A stretch of DNA of 41,393 nucleotides. It comes from Nitrospirota bacterium (lineage in GTDB: Bacteria > Nitrospirota > Nitrospiria > SBBL01 > JAADHI01). Positions 10,740 through 20,092 of the stretch are shown here, in pieces. The notes beneath the pieces were generated by a model. The model searched no databases. It was not told where the DNA came from and saw only the letters and a program-made list of their open reading frames with translations. Positions within the stretch are counted from its first letter, which is position 1; each line of letters begins with the position of its first letter. The DNA is taken from NCBI GenBank assembly GCA_029261165.1, contig JAJDBV010000056.1, positions 1-41,393 of the forward strand, in the 5' to 3' direction. The position numbers were made by a program, and so were the translations under genes.

Positions 10740-12713
10740 TTAAGCTTGGGAAAGTGCTTCGTCCTCCAGGGAGAGGGTTTCCCATTCCGTTGTCTTTTCC
10801 TTGATTTCACCTTTCAGTCGGTTGTGCCTTGACATGATTTCGTGGAAGCGTTTTTTGTCCTGATAAATCTCTGCATCTGACAGGAGGGTGACACATTCTT
10901 CATATTCTTTGGTTTTGATGCCGAGTGTCTCTTCAAGTCTCTCGATCTTTTTCTGTAAGGTCTTGCGTGTCTTGTAGGATCGGTTACGCTGTTCAGCCTC
11001 CTGCCGTCGCCGGTCTTTCCCTTCCTGACGATCCCCACTCTCTTTTATCTCTTTTGATCCATTTATTCGATTCGGCCTATTTTCAACAGTAATATCGAAC
11101 TCCGATGTTGTCGTCTTTTCCTTTTTAAAAAGATAATAATTGTAGTCTCCAGGATAGAAGGTCACCTGTCCCTGATCCACCTCGATAATACTGTCGGCCA
11201 CCTGACGGATAAGATGACGGTCATGGGTAATGAAACAGAGCGTACCGGTATATCCAACCAATGCCTTTTCGAGGACATCTCTTGAGGGAATATCGAGATG
11301 GTTTGTCGGTTCATCGAGCAGGATGAAGTTTGACGGGCGGATCAGCATCTTCGCCAGAGCAAGCCGGCTCTTCTCCCCCCCACTCAAAATGGAAACCTTT
11401 TTGAAGACATCGTCTCCCGTGAAGAGGAAAGCTCCGAGGATGCCACGGAGAAAAGAGGGTGCCCCTTCCGGTGCTGCGGATTGAATCTCCTCTAGGATAG
11501 TCCGGACCGGATTGAGGGTCTCAAGTTGATGCTGGCTATAGTAAGAGTCGGTGATTCTTTCACCCAGGAAGCGCTTCCCCTGATCGATAGGAAGAATCCC
11601 GGCCAGGATCTTAATCAGAGTCGATTTTCCTGCACCGTTCGGTCCGACCAGGGCGGTCTTACTCCCGCGCCGCAATACGAGATTGAGATCTTTATAGATG
11701 CGCGTGGCCCCATACGATTGACCAACATCCTCCAGAGTGATCACCGCTTCCCCGCCACGCTCCGGCTGGGGGAAATTAAATCGGACCTGCTTCGTCACCA
11801 GAACCGGTTCAAGCCGCTCCATCTTATCCAATTGTTTCAGGCGGCTCTGAGCCTGGCGGGCCTTTGTTGCCTTGTATCGAAAACGGTCCACAAACTTTTG
11901 CGTCTGCGCGATCTTCTTCTGTTGATTCTTATAGGTCGCTTCCTGAATCGCCAGAGATTCCGCCTTGGCCTCCAGGTAACGGTCGTAATTCCCTGTGTAT
12001 GTCAGTAGTTTTCCCTGCGCGATTTCAATGACTCGATTGGTTAAACCGTTAATGAAAGACCGGTCGTGAGAGATCAATAAGATCGAACCAGGGTAGTTTC
12101 GGAGGAAACCTTCGAGCCAGATCACGGACGCGAGATCAAGGTGGTTGGTCGGTTCATCCAGGAGAAGAATATCAGGCTGTGAGAGAAGGATCTTTGCGAG
12201 AGCGACCCGCATCAATTGCCCGCCGCTGAGTCGGTCGGTTTTCTCTCCAAACCGCGCTTCCTGAAAGCCTAAACCCGAGAGGACCTGCTTTGCCCGAGGT
12301 TCAAGCTGGTAACCCCCCTTTGCTTCAAAATGAGACTGAAGTTCAGCATAACGGAAACCGAGAAATCCCTTTTTATTTAGATCGCTCTCCTCATGGATCT
12401 CTCGATCAAGCGCTTTCATCTCGGCTTCAATCACATGAAGGACCTCACAGCCGGAGAGGACCTCTTCAATGATACTGCGGCCTCTCAATTGAATCACCTC
12501 CTGACGAAGGTATCCGACCACGGTTTCTTTTGAGATTACGATTTCCCCTTCGTCGGGCGATATATGGCCGCCGATCATCTCGAGAAGGGTCGTCTTGCCT
12601 GTGCCGTTCGTCCCGATTAGCGCAATCCGATCCCCTTCTGAAATCTGGAGCGTCGCCCCTGAGAACAACGCCCGGGTTCCAAATCGTTTTGCAATATTAA
12701 GTAGAGAAATCAT
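10740..12713 (-). CDS. ABC-F family ATPase (Uup/EttA-like translation factor)
   Basis: A soluble twin-ATPase of 657 residues with no membrane domain. The first domain has Walker [10 protein letters not shown] (about 34-42), LSGGQ and [11 protein letters not shown]. After the ABC-F linker rich in basic residues (about 240-320, [18 protein letters not shown]) the second has [14 protein letters not shown] and [11 protein letters not shown] charged coiled coil (~545-650) ends the protein, as in Uup. ABC-F proteins act on the ribosome's E site or, for Uup, in ribosome and replication-linked processes. Its start overlaps the stop of the upstream gene (ATGA), so the two are co-translated. Confidence 0.93.
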
Positions 12714-13774
12714 GGTTTAAGAGATGCGTTGAATTTAGATGCCAGGAGCGGATCCCACATTGCGCCGGTTGCCGACATCACCCCGTCGACACCCAGAGCC
12801 AGATAGTCTCGGATATGTTCCGGCGTCATCACTCCGCCGACGCCGACTATTTCAAAGTCGTATTGTTTTTTCCGTTTCAATGCGACGATCCTAGCCGCCT
12901 GCGCCATGGCGCATTGACGAATCGCCGCACCGCAGACCCCGGCACGAAGACGGCCCTTCCCCGGAAGGGCCTGTCCTCCATTCGGGCCGACCACCTCAAA
13001 GGAAAGCGTATTCACACCCGCAATGGCCTCGACAAAAGGGGCATTTGCCGAGACGACCTCTTCCAGACGCTTGGGGTCGGGAATATACCCGATCTTGATC
13101 ATCAGCGGGATGTCACCGATCGCACGTTTTACTGCCCTGGAAACGGCAGATGAATGATTCGGATCGGTATAGAGACTGCCTTCCCCGGTGACCACATTCG
13201 GACAGGAAAGGTTGATCTCAATAATCGGGGCACCCGCCTCAACCGCAAGGGTCGCCCCTTTGACATAGTCGGCTTCAAGCCCTTTTTCTCCCGGCGTGCC
13301 AACCACGCTGACAATCAAAAGCTGTCCGGCACTTAAACCATCTTTCGCCTTTTGAATGTCGGCCTGCCAAACCTCTGGCGCACGGGAGGGCATCCCGAAG
13401 GAATTGGTAATACTGATCCGGCTCCCCTCCGAAGGCGCTTCCATGGTCGCAATGAGTTGCTTCGAGAAGTCCTCTTCCCGGATTTGGCCCTCTATTCCAA
13501 GAAACATGCAGTTGGGGTTCGGATGGCTCGGAGTCTCACAGGTCCGCACCGTCTTGTAAACAAGAAGGTCGAAACCCAAAGCCGCATAGGCGAGGATCCA
13601 GCGCGCGTTTAGAAGAGGACCCGCCGGTATCCCGAGACGGGAATTGACTTCAAATCCAAGAAAGCGCTCCTTCCGGGTGATCTGGCGCGCCGGAACCTTT
13701 TCTTTGACAAAAGGCCCCTCCCGGTAGTTGTCCTCATAGGAACGATCAACATCATATGTGGGCGTCGGTTTCAT
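12710..13774 (-). CDS. Dihydroorotate dehydrogenase-like flavoprotein
   Basis: An FMN-dependent TIM-barrel protein of 354 residues. The motif [14 protein letters not shown] carries Cys where class 1 dihydroorotate dehydrogenases have their catalytic base (class 2 has Ser). The N-terminal [15 protein letters not shown] and C-terminal [29 protein letters not shown] (phosphate/FMN binding) fit the family. The N-terminal ~35 residues and several loops are unusual, so true pyrimidine synthesis activity is likely but not certain; an oxidoreductase of PreA type is an alternative. It is followed by the ABC-F gene with a 4-bp overlap. Its mRNA probably starts near or reads through the terminator at 13797-13830. 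Confidence 0.82.
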
Positions 13775-13796: not shown

Positions 13797-13830
13797 AAAA
13801 AATAAGCCCAGACAACGATCCGCCTGGGCT
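13797..13830 (-). terminator. Intrinsic terminator after tusA
   Basis: On the minus strand AGCCCAG (13824-13830) pairs with CTGGGCT (13805-13811), followed by TATTTTTTAT. It lies beyond the tusA stop and ends the reductase-tusA transcript. The stretch 13831-13972 between it and tusA holds no recognisable gene. Confidence 0.75.
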
Positions 13831-13972: not shown

Positions 13973-14215
13973 CTAAACTTTCTCGATGACCAGGCGGAAG
14001 TGCCCATCCGGGATCTCAGCCAACTCAAGGACCTTGTGTCCTTCGGCCTGAACGCTCCGGGGAACATTGCGTTCCGGTTCTCCTTCATCGATCACCACTT
14101 CAAGCACCTGGCCCGCTTCCATCTCTTCTAATTGCAGCTTTGTCTTTACAAAATTCATCGGGCAAAGCACTCCCGAAAGATCCAGGCGAACATCAACCTC
14201 TTTTCCCGCTTCCAT
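13973..14215 (-). CDS. tusA: TusA-family sulfur carrier protein
   Basis: An 80-residue cytosolic protein. The diagnostic CPMNFVKTKL has Cys18-Pro19, the persulfide-carrying site, after VRLDLSGVL. TusA proteins hand sulfane sulfur between enzymes (tRNA thiolation, molybdopterin, sulfur oxidation or assimilation). The gene is 28 bp downstream of the sulfite/nitrite reductase on the same strand, which points to assimilatory sulfur flow rather than tRNA modification alone. The symbol is given by family, not by proven orthology. Confidence 0.9.
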   Translation of the reverse strand: MEAGKEVDVRLDLSGVLCPMNFVKTKLQLEEMEAGQVLEVVIDEGEPERNVPRSVQAEGHKVLELAEIPDGHFRLVIEKV

Positions 14216-14243: not shown

Positions 14244-16394
14244 TTACGTCTTCGCTGGCTCTTTCTTGCGCAACTTCATGCTGGCATCCATTCGATCGTA
14301 AGCCGCCTGGCACTCTGCGATCAAGGCCGCGGCCCTTTCGATATGGGTCGAAACCGATGTTGACGCCATATCAAAATCAGTCCAGACCCCAAGGTCTGCG
14401 GTGAAGTACTCGAAGCCTTCGGAAAGAATGCCCTGTTCCACCAGCTTGTGCTGGAACTCCTTTAGGATTTCATCCTCATGGGGCGAATCAATACCATAGG
14501 TATACAGGAGCGCTCTGCACTCGAAGAGGATGGCCTCCCGCATTAGCTTGACCGCTTCGGAATACTCACTGTTTTTCACGGCCAGGGCGGCCTTCTCGAT
14601 GGTTTCTCTCCCCATTCTCAAGGCGTATTCAATCATATCGATGACGGTCCCGGAACATTCACCCGGACCGAGATCATCGAGTGTAAAGGCCTTTTCTTCC
14701 TTCCAATCCAGATAGGCATCGGGGGCGGCCTCCTGGGTCGGAAGGCTTGTAAAGCGTTCGAGTTGCTCGCAAAACTGTTTCCGGCCAAACCGCTCGACAA
14801 AGTCGTTGAAATTCTCTTTTTCCTGATGTTTCTCACGATAAATCCGGACCATCTCCAAGACCATCGAAGGTATATTCTTTGCCGGTATCTTTAAGTTTGA
14901 GCTTCCGATGACCGACGCCTCCGCGTCCACTTTCCCCCCAAGGTGAAGCTGGTAATGCGGGACGAGTGTTCCATTGACCTTTTTTGCGACGCCGTGAAAC
15001 CCGATCCCGGCGATATGGTGATGGCCGCAGGAATTGGGGCAGCCGGAGATACGAACCCGAAGGCCCTCAAGGTCTTCATACTCCGGCAGATCTTTTGAGA
15101 AAGATTCCACAAGGGCGCCGCCCAGTCCCATCGAGGAGGTCAGGGCCAATTGACAGGTCTCGGCCCCCGGACAGGCGATGACATCCACCACGCGTTCCGC
15201 ACCGGCCTCCGCCAGGCCGATCTCACAAAGCGCACCATAGAGATCGGGAAGGTCTTTCCGATGGATGCTATGGAGAAGCATGTTCTGCTGATGTGTGGTT
15301 CGAAGACCATCAGGGGAATAGCGGTCAACCACATCGGCCAAACCGCGAAACTGAGCAACAGTAATGTCGCCCAGGGTCAGCTTGATCTGGACGGCACACC
15401 GCTCTTCCGGGCGCGGCACCACATTCGTCCGCATCCACCGTGCATATTCAGAGTCGGCAGTCTGGGCACCGTTTCCGTTCTGGACCATGGACAGGGGTTG
15501 GCTGGGCGTCTTTTGAAGCGGCCGCGGCAGGGCCGGGTACTCCCTTCCCTCTTTCTTTAATGCGGCCAATTCCTCTGAAACTTTTTCTTTAAAAAGGTCC
15601 ATCCCCCACTTTTCCAGAATAAATTTCATCCGGGCCTTGCTTTTTCTCCGCCGGTCGCCATGCTTGTCAAAAATTCTCAAGATGGCCTCGCAGGTCACAA
15701 GCACCTCGTCGATGGGAAGAAATTCCGTATAAAGCATCGCCAGCTTGGGGTGCGACCCCAAGCCTCCCCCGACCAAAACCTTAAAACCGTAAACCGTTTC
15801 TCCAGCAACCTCCCGGCTCTCGGCGATAAACCCGATATCGTGAATAGCGGCCAGGCCGCATTCACTCTGGCAACCGGAAAAGGAGATCTTAAATTTTCGA
15901 GGCATGTCCTGGGTGATCGGATTCCGAAGAAGATGGTAGGCCACCTTTTCGCCGTAGGGGGTGACATCAAACAGTTCTGTGGGGCAGGTCCCGGCATGTT
16001 GACAAGCGGTGACATTTCGGACCGTGTTGCCGCAAGCCTCACGGGTCGTCAGTCCCGCCTCGGCCAATTGGGTCATGATGGTCGTGACATGGTCGAGATC
16101 GACATAATGAAACTGGATATCCTGGCGGGTGGTGACATGACCAATGCCCTTTGTATATTTCTCAGAGATGTCGGCCAGGCAACGGAGTTTTTGGGCATTC
16201 AGAAGTCCGGAAGGAATCTTAACGCGAACCATCTGCAACCCTGCCTGCCGTTGACCATAGATGCCGTATTGAAGTCGGAAACGCTTGAATTTCTCTTCCG
16301 GGATCTCCTTATTTTTGAAGCGGGCCACCTGGACACCGAAGTTCTCGATTTCCTTAGTGACCTCCTCCGTCACAACAACTTGCGTTTGTTCCAT
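14244..16394 (-). CDS. Siroheme [4Fe-4S] sulfite/nitrite reductase with two complete cofactor motifs
   Basis: Ferredoxin-type reductases of this fold carry out six-electron reduction of sulfite to sulfide or nitrite to ammonia. The two homologous halves are visible. The N-half has the TTRQDIQFHY (88-97) and MPRKFKI (164-170) substrate-side residues, and also C131-x5-C137-x37-C175-x3-C179. The C-half has C408-x5-C414-x37-C452-x3-C456 (ACPGAETC, GCPNSCG). The spacing is identical in both; normally only the C-half keeps a full set. A ~140-residue helical C-terminal extension (from ~570) is of unknown role. Adjacent tusA favours sulfite as substrate, but nitrite cannot be excluded. Confidence 0.9.
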   Translation of the reverse strand: MEQTQVVVTEEVTKEIENFGVQVARFKNKEIPEEKFKRFRLQYGIYGQRQAGLQMVRVKIPSGLLNAQKLRCLADISEKYTKGIGHVTTRQDIQFHYVDLDHVTTIMTQLAEAGLTTREACGNTVRNVTACQHAGTCPTELFDVTPYGEKVAYHLLRNPITQDMPRKFKISFSGCQSECGLAAIHDIGFIAESREVAGETVYGFKVLVGGGLGSHPKLAMLYTEFLPIDEVLVTCEAILRIFDKHGDRRRKSKARMKFILEKWGMDLFKEKVSEELAALKKEGREYPALPRPLQKTPSQPLSMVQNGNGAQTADSEYARWMRTNVVPRPEERCAVQIKLTLGDITVAQFRGLADVVDRYSPDGLRTTHQQNMLLHSIHRKDLPDLYGALCEIGLAEAGAERVVDVIACPGAETCQLALTSSMGLGGALVESFSKDLPEYEDLEGLRVRISGCPNSCGHHHIAGIGFHGVAKKVNGTLVPHYQLHLGGKVDAEASVIGSSNLKIPAKNIPSMVLEMVRIYREKHQEKENFNDFVERFGRKQFCEQLERFTSLPTQEAAPDAYLDWKEEKAFTLDDLGPGECSGTVIDMIEYALRMGRETIEKAALAVKNSEYSEAVKLMREAILFECRALLYTYGIDSPHEDEILKEFQHKLVEQGILSEGFEYFTADLGVWTDFDMASTSVSTHIERAAALIAECQAAYDRMDASMKLRKKEPAKT

Positions 16395-16567
16395 CAGATC
16401 TATACCCTCAGTATTATCTCTAAATAGCCTCTAATTAAGTACGAGGATACACCATCCTAAGAGATGGAATCAAGGATTTCCCGCTTCCCCCAAGAGCAAT
16501 CTGTACCCTCTGATTGACCCTGGACGTACCGGCTTGTTATGCTGATATTCGGTGGGGGAGTATCACT

Positions 16568-17749
16568 ATGAACTTTTGGTCCGGGATTTCAACGGAACCC
16601 GAATCGCTTATTGCTGTGGAAAAACTCGCATCGGATGCAATGCAGGCGATCGGCTTGCCCCCGGACCTGTGTGTCTTTTTTATCTCCTCTCACCATCGCA
16701 AAGCAGCCTCTGAAATTGCCAGCCATCTCAAACAGACCTTAAACGCCGGAGTTTTGCTCGGCTGTACCGGCGAAGGAATCATTGGTTCCACTCAAGAGGT
16801 CGAACAAGGACCAGCCATTTCACTTTGGACCGCAAACCTGCCCGGTGTCACCCTCCTCCCTTTCCACCTCACCTTTCAAGAAGATACCCAGGGCGTGCAA
16901 TTGAAGGGATGGCCCGAAGAACGCCCCCCTCGTGAAGACCACCCATTTTTTATTATACTGGCTGAACCCTTCTCAACCCCTGCAGCCGCCCTTCTCTCCT
17001 TCCTTCAGGGCAAATTCCCTTTCGCGCCAACACTCGGCGGAATGGCAGGCGGCGCCCGAAATCCCGGGGAGAATCTCCTTTTCCTGAACGACCAGATCAT
17101 AAAAGAAGGCTGTGTCGGCATTATGGCCCATGGTGCCATCCGGCTGGAAACTGTCGTTTCCCAGGGATGCCGACCCGTCGGAGATCGTTTTCTTGTCACA
17201 TCTGCTGAACGAAACATTATCCACGAGTTAGGAGGTCGGCCTGCTCTTCAATCCGTCAAGGAAACCTATGGAAATTTGAGTGAACAGGAAAAACGCCTGG
17301 CACAAGAAGGCCTTCATGTTGGTGTCGCGGTTGACGAGCAGCTTAGCCACTTTGGGCGAGGCGACTTCATCATCCGCAGCCTGATCGGAATTGATCAGGA
17401 CAGCGGCAGCCTCAGTTGTGGAGACCTCATCAAGGAGGGGCAAACCGTCCAGTTGCAGGTCCGGGATGGGGAAAGCGCCCGGGAAGATCTCCGCCTGCTG
17501 CTGGAGACCCGAAAAAATGAACTGGGCGAGGCAAGGGCCGAAGCCGCACTGCTCTTTTCCTGCAATGGCCGAGGGCAAAGTTTTTTTGGCAGCCCACATC
17601 ACGATATAGGCGCCATCCGGGAACGCCTCGGAGATATCCCTGTTGCGGGCTTTTTCGCGCAAGGAGAAATCGGCCCGATTGGTCGGAGAAATTTTCTGCA
17701 CGGATTTACTGCAAGTATTGTCCTTTTCTGTGAAGGAGGCTCTGATTAA
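16568..17749 (+). CDS. FIST-domain protein
   Basis: About 394 residues covering a FIST N domain (to ~200) and a FIST C domain (~215-375). Typical features are GCTGEGIIGS, the central PTLGGMAGGA and the C-terminal VAGFFAQGEIGPIGRRNFLHGFTASIVLF. FIST is a proposed small-ligand (perhaps amino-acid) sensing domain that is usually fused to kinases or other output domains; here it stands alone. I chose ATG 16568 (MNFWSG), preceded by GGTGGGGGAG; the frame is open from 16514. The last codons (GGSD, stop) lie in the left arm of a fold-back repeat. Confidence 0.87.
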   Translation: MNFWSGISTEPESLIAVEKLASDAMQAIGLPPDLCVFFISSHHRKAASEIASHLKQTLNAGVLLGCTGEGIIGSTQEVEQGPAISLWTANLPGVTLLPFHLTFQEDTQGVQLKGWPEERPPREDHPFFIILAEPFSTPAAALLSFLQGKFPFAPTLGGMAGGARNPGENLLFLNDQIIKEGCVGIMAHGAIRLETVVSQGCRPVGDRFLVTSAERNIIHELGGRPALQSVKETYGNLSEQEKRLAQEGLHVGVAVDEQLSHFGRGDFIIRSLIGIDQDSGSLSCGDLIKEGQTVQLQVRDGESAREDLRLLLETRKNELGEARAEAALLFSCNGRGQSFFGSPHHDIGAIRERLGDIPVAGFFAQGEIGPIGRRNFLHGFTASIVLFCEGGSD

Positions 17750-19195: not shown

Positions 19196-19336
19196 GCGCG
19201 TCCTCCTTCTCAATGCTCAGGGTAACAAAGTTCGTATATCTTTCGCAACATGCTATGATGCGGGACAGAAAGGGAAAAAAGGGCTTTGGAGGTCCAAGGC
19301 TTGTTTTATAATTTATTGACAACATTGGAGGTCAAC

Positions 19337-20092
19337 ATGAATAAAAATGAAGTTGTCGCACGTCAATTGAAAGGGGCTTTGGACTTTCCTTTGACGCCGG
19401 TTGCGCTGTCCTTTTGTGAAGACCTTCCTGAAGATATCCCGGAATTTGAAGGATCCGTTCCGGCCGGTTGCTCCTTCTGGGAGGAAGCAGCAAGGGGAAT
19501 TTTTGTGACTTCAACCAAAGATCACAAACTATGTGCCATTGGCATACATACCCATAACCTGGTTCAACCCTCTGAATCATATCAGGGAGAGCTTCGGGAA
19601 GTACTACAGGCAATGAGCGGCTTGGATTACGTCCGAGAAGAGGAAATCGCCCAAATTCCGGTTTTGGATCGTGAAGTGAAGCACCTTGTCTACGGGCCTC
19701 TCGCCGAGCTTCCGATGGGTCCCGATATCGTGTTGCTTTTTGCTCAAGCGCAACAGGGGCTGATCATCAGCGAAGCCGTTCAACGGGTCGATAAAAACAG
19801 CGCGCCTGCAATGGGACGTCCTGCATGTGCCGTCATTCCCCAAGTGATGAATAATGGTAAAGCAGCCGTGAGTCTGGGTTGCTGCGGAGCCAGAACGTAT
19901 TTGGATGCGCTCTCAGATGATGTGGCGTTATGGGCGCTTCCTGGCGGGAAGATTGAACAGTACTGTGAACAGATTGTTATTCTGGCCAAAGCAAACAAGA
20001 CGCTCACCCTCTTTCACCAGAAGAGAAAAAGAGATGTTGCCTTGGGTGAGAGGCCAAGCGTTCAGGAATCTCTAGCGCGGGTCTTTAAGTGA
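19337..20092 (+). CDS. DUF169-family protein
   Basis: A 251-residue cytosolic protein from ATG 19337, preceded by TTGGAGG. It matches the DUF169 pattern: LTPVALSFCEDLPE at the start, VPAGCSFWEEAARG with Cys, HKLCAIGIHTHNL, GRPACAVIPQVMNNGKAAVSLGCCGARTY and a C-terminal ALPGGKIE. The conserved cysteines suggest a metal or cofactor site, but no activity is established for the family. Its end overlaps the convergent gene by 8 bp, with no terminator visible. Confidence 0.82.
   Translation: MNKNEVVARQLKGALDFPLTPVALSFCEDLPEDIPEFEGSVPAGCSFWEEAARGIFVTSTKDHKLCAIGIHTHNLVQPSESYQGELREVLQAMSGLDYVREEEIAQIPVLDREVKHLVYGPLAELPMGPDIVLLFAQAQQGLIISEAVQRVDKNSAPAMGRPACAVIPQVMNNGKAAVSLGCCGARTYLDALSDDVALWALPGGKIEQYCEQIVILAKANKTLTLFHQKRKRDVALGERPSVQESLARVFK

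Follow-up and report, generated by a model that had tools for sequence, protein, structure and literature searches.

What is a second, complete set of cofactor ligands doing in a single-chain sulfite or nitrite reductase? To our knowledge, the loss of one of the two cofactor sites is already complete in all known enzymes of this single-chain kind. Models of sulfite reductase evolution start from duplication and fusion, followed by the loss of one cofactor site (Jespersen et al., PMC10229431), and in the characterised single-chain assimilatory enzymes it is the N-half site that is lost (PMC10229431). The stretch of Nitrospirota DNA analysed here (the window; 41,393 nucleotides, contig JAJDBV010000056.1) encodes a two-half reductase in which both sets are present, followed by a gene for a TusA-type protein (Table 1). 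It is proposed that the window protein is a ferredoxin-type single-chain assimilatory sulfite reductase whose N-half cofactor cysteines were never lost, an assignment that we consider, jointly with the mechanism set out below, to be moderately probable.

Table 1. Features of the reductase-tusA locus (window positions; residue numbers refer to the reductase).
Feature	Position	Strand	Remark
Predicted assimilatory sulfite reductase gene	14244..16394	-	716 aa; two NIR_SIR_ferr/NIR_SIR halves and C-terminal HEPN domain
N-half basic residues R57, R90, R126, K167, K169 (aa 57-169)	15888..16226	-	invariant in 52 sequences
N-half cysteine set C131-x5-C137-x37-C175-x3-C179 (aa 131-179)	15858..16004	-	invariant in Nitrospirota
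C-half cysteine set C408-x5-C414-x37-C452-x3-C456 (aa 408-456)	15027..15173	-	equivalent to SiRHP C434, C440, C479, C483; invariant in 52 sequences
HEPN-fold domain (aa 572-708)	14271..14681	-	no R-x4-6-H RNase motif
tusA gene, 80 aa, CPMN motif	13973..14215	-	fused to the reductase in most relatives
Terminator-like hairpin and T-run downstream of tusA	13805..13830	-	consensus match
Dihydroorotate-dehydrogenase-like (DHOD-like) gene	12710..13774	-	often adjoins reductase-tusA within the order; no clear equivalog

The two halves of the reductase comprise two NIR_SIR_ferr and two NIR_SIR units, all above the curated Pfam cut-off, which places the protein in the NIR_SIR superfamily, and the halves are recognisably homologous when aligned with one another (hhalign probability 99.6, E 2.7e-24). 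The AlphaFold2 model of the whole chain has a pLDDT of 89, its lowest-confidence core segment being the loop of residues 121-130 before C131 (pLDDT about 55), and when the model was compared with solved structures, residues 14-542 matched NirA 1zj8 with a Z score of 35.8 and SiRHP was matched too. Among the NCBIfam equivalogs, the cut-offs of NirA, CysI and Sir are not reached (best 267.9 bits against a cut-off of 523). The protein also falls outside DsrAB, as it scores under the dsrA and dsrB cut-offs of NCBIfam and there are no separate DsrA and DsrB subunits. As expected of an aSir, it is a fused two-half chain with N-half basic residues equivalent to SiRHP R83, R153, K215 and K217. The N-half cluster motif, which known aSirs have lost (PMC10229431), is kept, and the window reductase is therefore a variant rather than a typical aSir.

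The original prediction described two complete cysteine sets, equally spaced and offset throughout by 277 residues, a description that holds at all eight positions of the window protein. Because the halves are homologous, equal spacing is expected if both sites were retained, and the constant offset points to an internal duplication after which neither ligand set was lost. The C-half has the C-x5-C-xn-C-x3-C ligands for its cofactor; the N-half is without the Pro-Asn of the C-P-N-x-C motif, which is present in the C-half and in DsrA. The four N-half cysteines do not vary across 29 non-redundant Nitrospirota rows from a homologue sample of GTDB genomes, in which pairs share 50% identity on average and 39% at the least, and in all complete Nitrospirota homologues that were examined, including pairs with as little as 39% identity, the full set of eight is invariant. 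The pattern CCCC/CCCC occurs in 45 of the 46 aligned Nitrospirota rows, a count that includes a few duplicate records, and the remaining row is a contig-cut fragment; in the class of the window genome and in further Nitrospirota families (42-68% identity), each complete protein examined carries CCCC twice, once per half. The non-ligand cysteines 72, 235, 333, 390 and 542 vary freely among the 29 rows, while C121 and C580 are also invariant. With about 27% of the N-half columns invariant, the chance that four named ones are all invariant is about 0.005, and by this comparison the conservation of the N-half cysteines is beyond chance. The two-set state is thus real in this protein and is not special to it, being common to all Nitrospirota homologues examined and to some Chloroflexota.

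Outside the Nitrospirota, the N-half site shows varying degrees of decay. In the alignment of E. coli CysI its four positions are occupied by N-L-P-D, which together with published work (PMC10229431) bears out the earlier claim that this site is degenerate in known single-chain enzymes. In the sample from other phyla, the C-half ligands are mostly preserved and the N-half set differs, with graded decay: SDST or SDNT in Bacteroidota, SGTD or SSTD in Nitrospinota, and in Chloroflexota the full range from CCCC (seven rows, of which one is a duplicate) through CDCC, CCCM and SCCD to DCSR or DASR. Far-out Bathyarchaeota rows have an altered C-half as well (CGCC). Short two-half reductases in which N-half cysteines are partly retained (CDCC, CECC and CDCQ) occur both in Bathyarchaeota (L017 and L020, with the C-half set changed to CGCC) and in Planctomycetota (L018 and L019). 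The direction of change was considered on a tree from which the eight ligand columns had been excluded; this careful tree also omits L016-L020, L026, L114 and E. coli CysI owing to their long branches. A minimum of three changes separates the intact and degenerate states on this tree, in which some inner nodes are weak, and this equals three losses from an intact ancestor, namely in Bacteroidota, in the L112/L113 lineage, and in Nitrospinota with most Chloroflexota. One ligand is lost in L088 (CDCC), either in addition to or in place of one of these three losses. A single origin of the intact state, with all intact rows as one clade, was rejected (p 1.4e-22). Change counts alone give no direction; retention of the ancestral two-site state rather than re-invention is the favoured reading, since repeated regain of four correctly spaced cysteines is implausible.

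Retention of both ligand sets does not make the two halves alike. In the architecture of SiRHP, basic residues of the N-half face the siroheme of the C-half. The invariant R57, R90, R126, K167 and K169 map onto SiRHP R83, R117, R153, K215 and K217 in the alignment, whereas their C-half counterparts are not conserved basic residues: position 336 is mostly Q, E or Y in the family, 369 mostly Q, N or E, 403 mostly T, V or E, 444 mostly G or D, and 446 mostly R, H or K, and the window protein itself has Q336, Q369, V403 and G444. The sole conserved residue among the C-half counterparts is R365, the counterpart of H86 (SiRHP R113), a position at which 50 of 52 rows have R or K. A similar one-sidedness is found in DsrAB, as DsrA keeps the KFKFK motif and the Arg before the first cysteines and DsrB is without both. 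Alignment with SiRHP and DsrAB, which had been suggested from the start, thus gave C-half ligands and N-half basic residues that match SiRHP and an asymmetry that is DsrAB-like. Because the conserved basic residues lie only in the N-half, where they would serve the C-half cofactor, and because the DsrAB pattern is alike, the C-half site is predicted to be catalytic; the second site, if occupied, would probably play no catalytic part and would resemble the siroheme of DsrA in DsrAB, a centre that has been termed structural (PMC10229431). Two catalytic sites in one chain are unlikely on this distribution of residues. Of the ancestral symmetric state suggested by the original prediction, retention agrees with the distribution and the tree, but equivalence of the two halves as working sites finds no support in the C-half residues.

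Conserved cysteines alone are no proof of siroheme binding, the low-confidence loop before C131 and the missing Pro-Asn of the N-half count against it, and the N-half cofactor site is a predicted one. Its cysteines could instead bind a [4Fe-4S] cluster without siroheme, acting as an electron-entry or relay centre. Such a cluster would account for their conservation, and the C-half positions expected to surround a second siroheme (336, 369, 403, 444 and 446) are variable or uncharged; however, the Arg or Lys kept at R365 speaks for a siroheme, as does the fact that the four-cysteine pattern in known relatives accompanies siroheme or sirohydrochlorin (PMC10229431), and we regard a bare cluster as rather unlikely. 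Less credit is due to an N-half that is free of cofactor, with its cysteines retained to form disulfides, to bind another metal or to sense redox state. That the cysteines are dispensable in several lineages would suit such a role, but exact ligand spacing held over 29 diverse Nitrospirota proteins, and decay that usually reaches several of the four cysteines once it has begun, render it improbable. A true two-site enzyme with both halves catalytic could invoke the completeness of both cysteine sets and is highly improbable, as the Arg/Lys counterparts that an N-half cofactor would need are missing and variable in the family.

The choice between sulfite and nitrite as substrate draws on genome context. 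The operons of relatives are arranged as Rrf2-SiR/TusA-CysH-TrpD-like-CysD-CysN or as AprA-AprB-SiR/TusA-Sat, and CysH, CysD and CysN also adjoin homologues in Bacteroidota, Actinomycetes and Myxococcales, the family labels being partly read from sequence. Within their CysH-CysD-CysN operon, Nitrospiria also have a conserved gene for a TrpD-like phosphoribosyltransferase (L071-L076). The link to sulfate-assimilation genes seen in relatives takes the form of the same genome and another contig in the case of the window: Rrf2-AprA-AprB-Sat is located on contig C54, not next to the reductase, a separation that counts against the assignment, with AprA, Sat and Rrf2 passing NCBIfam cut-offs and the AprB match below its cut-off. 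DsrAB was not found in this genome, where the only matches were the reductase and NirB-type proteins, far below cut-off, and no CysH was recognisable; two weak PAPS_reductase matches (33-36 bits) were rejected as CysH, the proteins being DndC-like and TtcA-like by sequence. The nitrite reductases of the genome are encoded on contig C22. Two assimilatory nitrite reductases stand there side by side. In one, of 1078 aa (L026; 9192-12428, - strand), a NirB-type FAD/BFD reductase is fused to a complete NirA-like two-half reductase with C-A-C-A at its N-half sites, and the gene adjoins that of a NarK-type transporter; the other is an adjoining NirB-NirD fusion of 1006 aa (L026; 5794-8814, + strand). 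Based on the operons of relatives, the genome's own AprAB and Sat, the lack of DsrAB and the location of nitrite reductases elsewhere, the window enzyme is most likely a sulfite reductase of sulfate assimilation, with its activity predicted. A nitrite reductase of the NirA type would fit the closest solved structure and the best NCBIfam matches, which are NirA-type though far below cut-off, but it is scarcely credible given the sulfate-assimilation operons in Nitrospirota relatives and three other groups, the tusA fusion in relatives, and the dedicated nitrite reductases of the genome. Both sulfite and nitrite may be turned over in vitro by the window enzyme.

In the family of the window genome tusA is a separate gene, which starts 28 bp past the reductase stop codon; its product scores 78 bits against Pfam TusA and has the conserved N-terminal Cys-Pro. 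In most Nitrospirota relatives the TusA domain is fused C-terminal to the HEPN domain, and all copies examined, whether fused or adjacent, retain the TusA cysteine. One sulfite reductase-HEPN chain of 895 aa carries two tandem TusA domains (L045). Fusion in relatives and adjacency in the window suggest a direct partnership of reductase and TusA, and by analogy with DsrAB and DsrC we propose that TusA accepts sulfur from the reductase; as a counterpoint, it could be a separate sulfur-trafficking protein that needs co-expression only. The hairpin downstream of tusA could close the reductase-tusA unit, although five such hairpins in the region against 3.6 expected from shuffles is a slight excess. 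Divergent from the reductase gene lies that of a FIST-domain protein with a distant resemblance to NosP (16514-17749, + strand), and a DUF169 protein is encoded near the locus (19286-20092, + strand).

The 140-residue helical extension that had been called unusual is real and has a HEPN fold, but it is shared with relatives, and the linked tusA gene had been overlooked. Modelled alone, this domain reaches a pLDDT of 91; residues 572-708 match the HEPN structure 2hsb (AF_0298) with a Z score of 14.6 over 115 residues at 2.6 A and a HEPN profile at E 4.7e-7, the Pfam HEPN score of 20.0 bits lying just under the cut-off of 22. A role as an RNase toxin was rejected, the catalytic motif being absent. 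A survey of the HEPN superfamily is without mention of sulfite or nitrite reductases (PMC3710099).

Based on these features, a possible mechanism is proposed. The C-half cysteines would bind the working siroheme-[4Fe-4S], and the N-half Arg/Lys pocket, judging from its conserved residues, would hold sulfite against this cofactor. The N-half cysteines would most likely bind a second, non-catalytic siroheme-[4Fe-4S], which would stabilise the fold or relay electrons, as the DsrA site does in DsrAB. Sulfite would be supplied by Sat and AprAB, whose genes lie elsewhere in the genome. From the reductase, the product or an intermediate form of sulfur may then pass to TusA, the carrier whose gene follows directly downstream and which in most relatives forms the C-terminal domain of the same chain, with the HEPN domain probably acting as a non-catalytic docking module between reductase and TusA. 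As a whole, this explanation seems moderately probable. A bolder extension, which we offer tentatively and find rather doubtful, is that the Nitrospirota and Chloroflexota enzymes are post-fusion, pre-loss single chains with two siroheme-[4Fe-4S] centres, and that in Nitrospirota persulfide is channelled via the HEPN linker to the fused TusA, an arrangement that would mirror, on the assimilatory side, the transfer from DsrAB to DsrC.

Both sites appear to have survived in the Nitrospirota, whose members include oxidisers of nitrite and of manganese, and Chloroflexota homologues show stages of decay. The Nitrospirota enzyme looks like the intermediate predicted by the evolution models, and a count of sirohemes per chain would put "fusion before loss" to the test. 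Conservation of the HEPN and TusA parts suggests that in assimilation sulfur is passed on directly, a step undescribed in the literature searched; that literature, which included PMC10229431, PMC3448663 and PMC3710099 and left most subscription papers outside, held no single-chain two-set enzyme, HEPN-reductase or reductase-TusA fusion.

Among known systems, M. tuberculosis NirA (1zj8), plant Sir/NiR and E. coli CysI/SiRHP share with the window protein the two-half chain, the fold, the C-half ligands and the N-half basic residues, but have lost the N-half cysteines and possess neither a HEPN nor a TusA part. The TusA family has the same Pfam domain and conserved Cys, with CPxN in the window against the usual CPxP, and in most relatives TusA is fused to the reductase. 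HEPN domains such as AF_0298 (2hsb) have the same fold as residues 572-708, from which the R-x4-6-H RNase motif is missing. Group I Fsr of methanogens is a symmetric homodimer that keeps the cofactor in each half and reduces sulfite to sulfide; in contrast to the window protein, each of its chains has a single reductase module, to which an F420H2 oxidase is fused. DsrAB resembles the window protein in retaining both cysteine sets, in taking the K-x-K and Arg pattern from one half only, and in working with a small sulfur-carrier protein, DsrC, as is proposed here for TusA. DsrAB is, however, made of two subunits with an inserted ferredoxin domain and is far in sequence, whereas the window protein is without the ferredoxin insert and is linked to assimilation genes.
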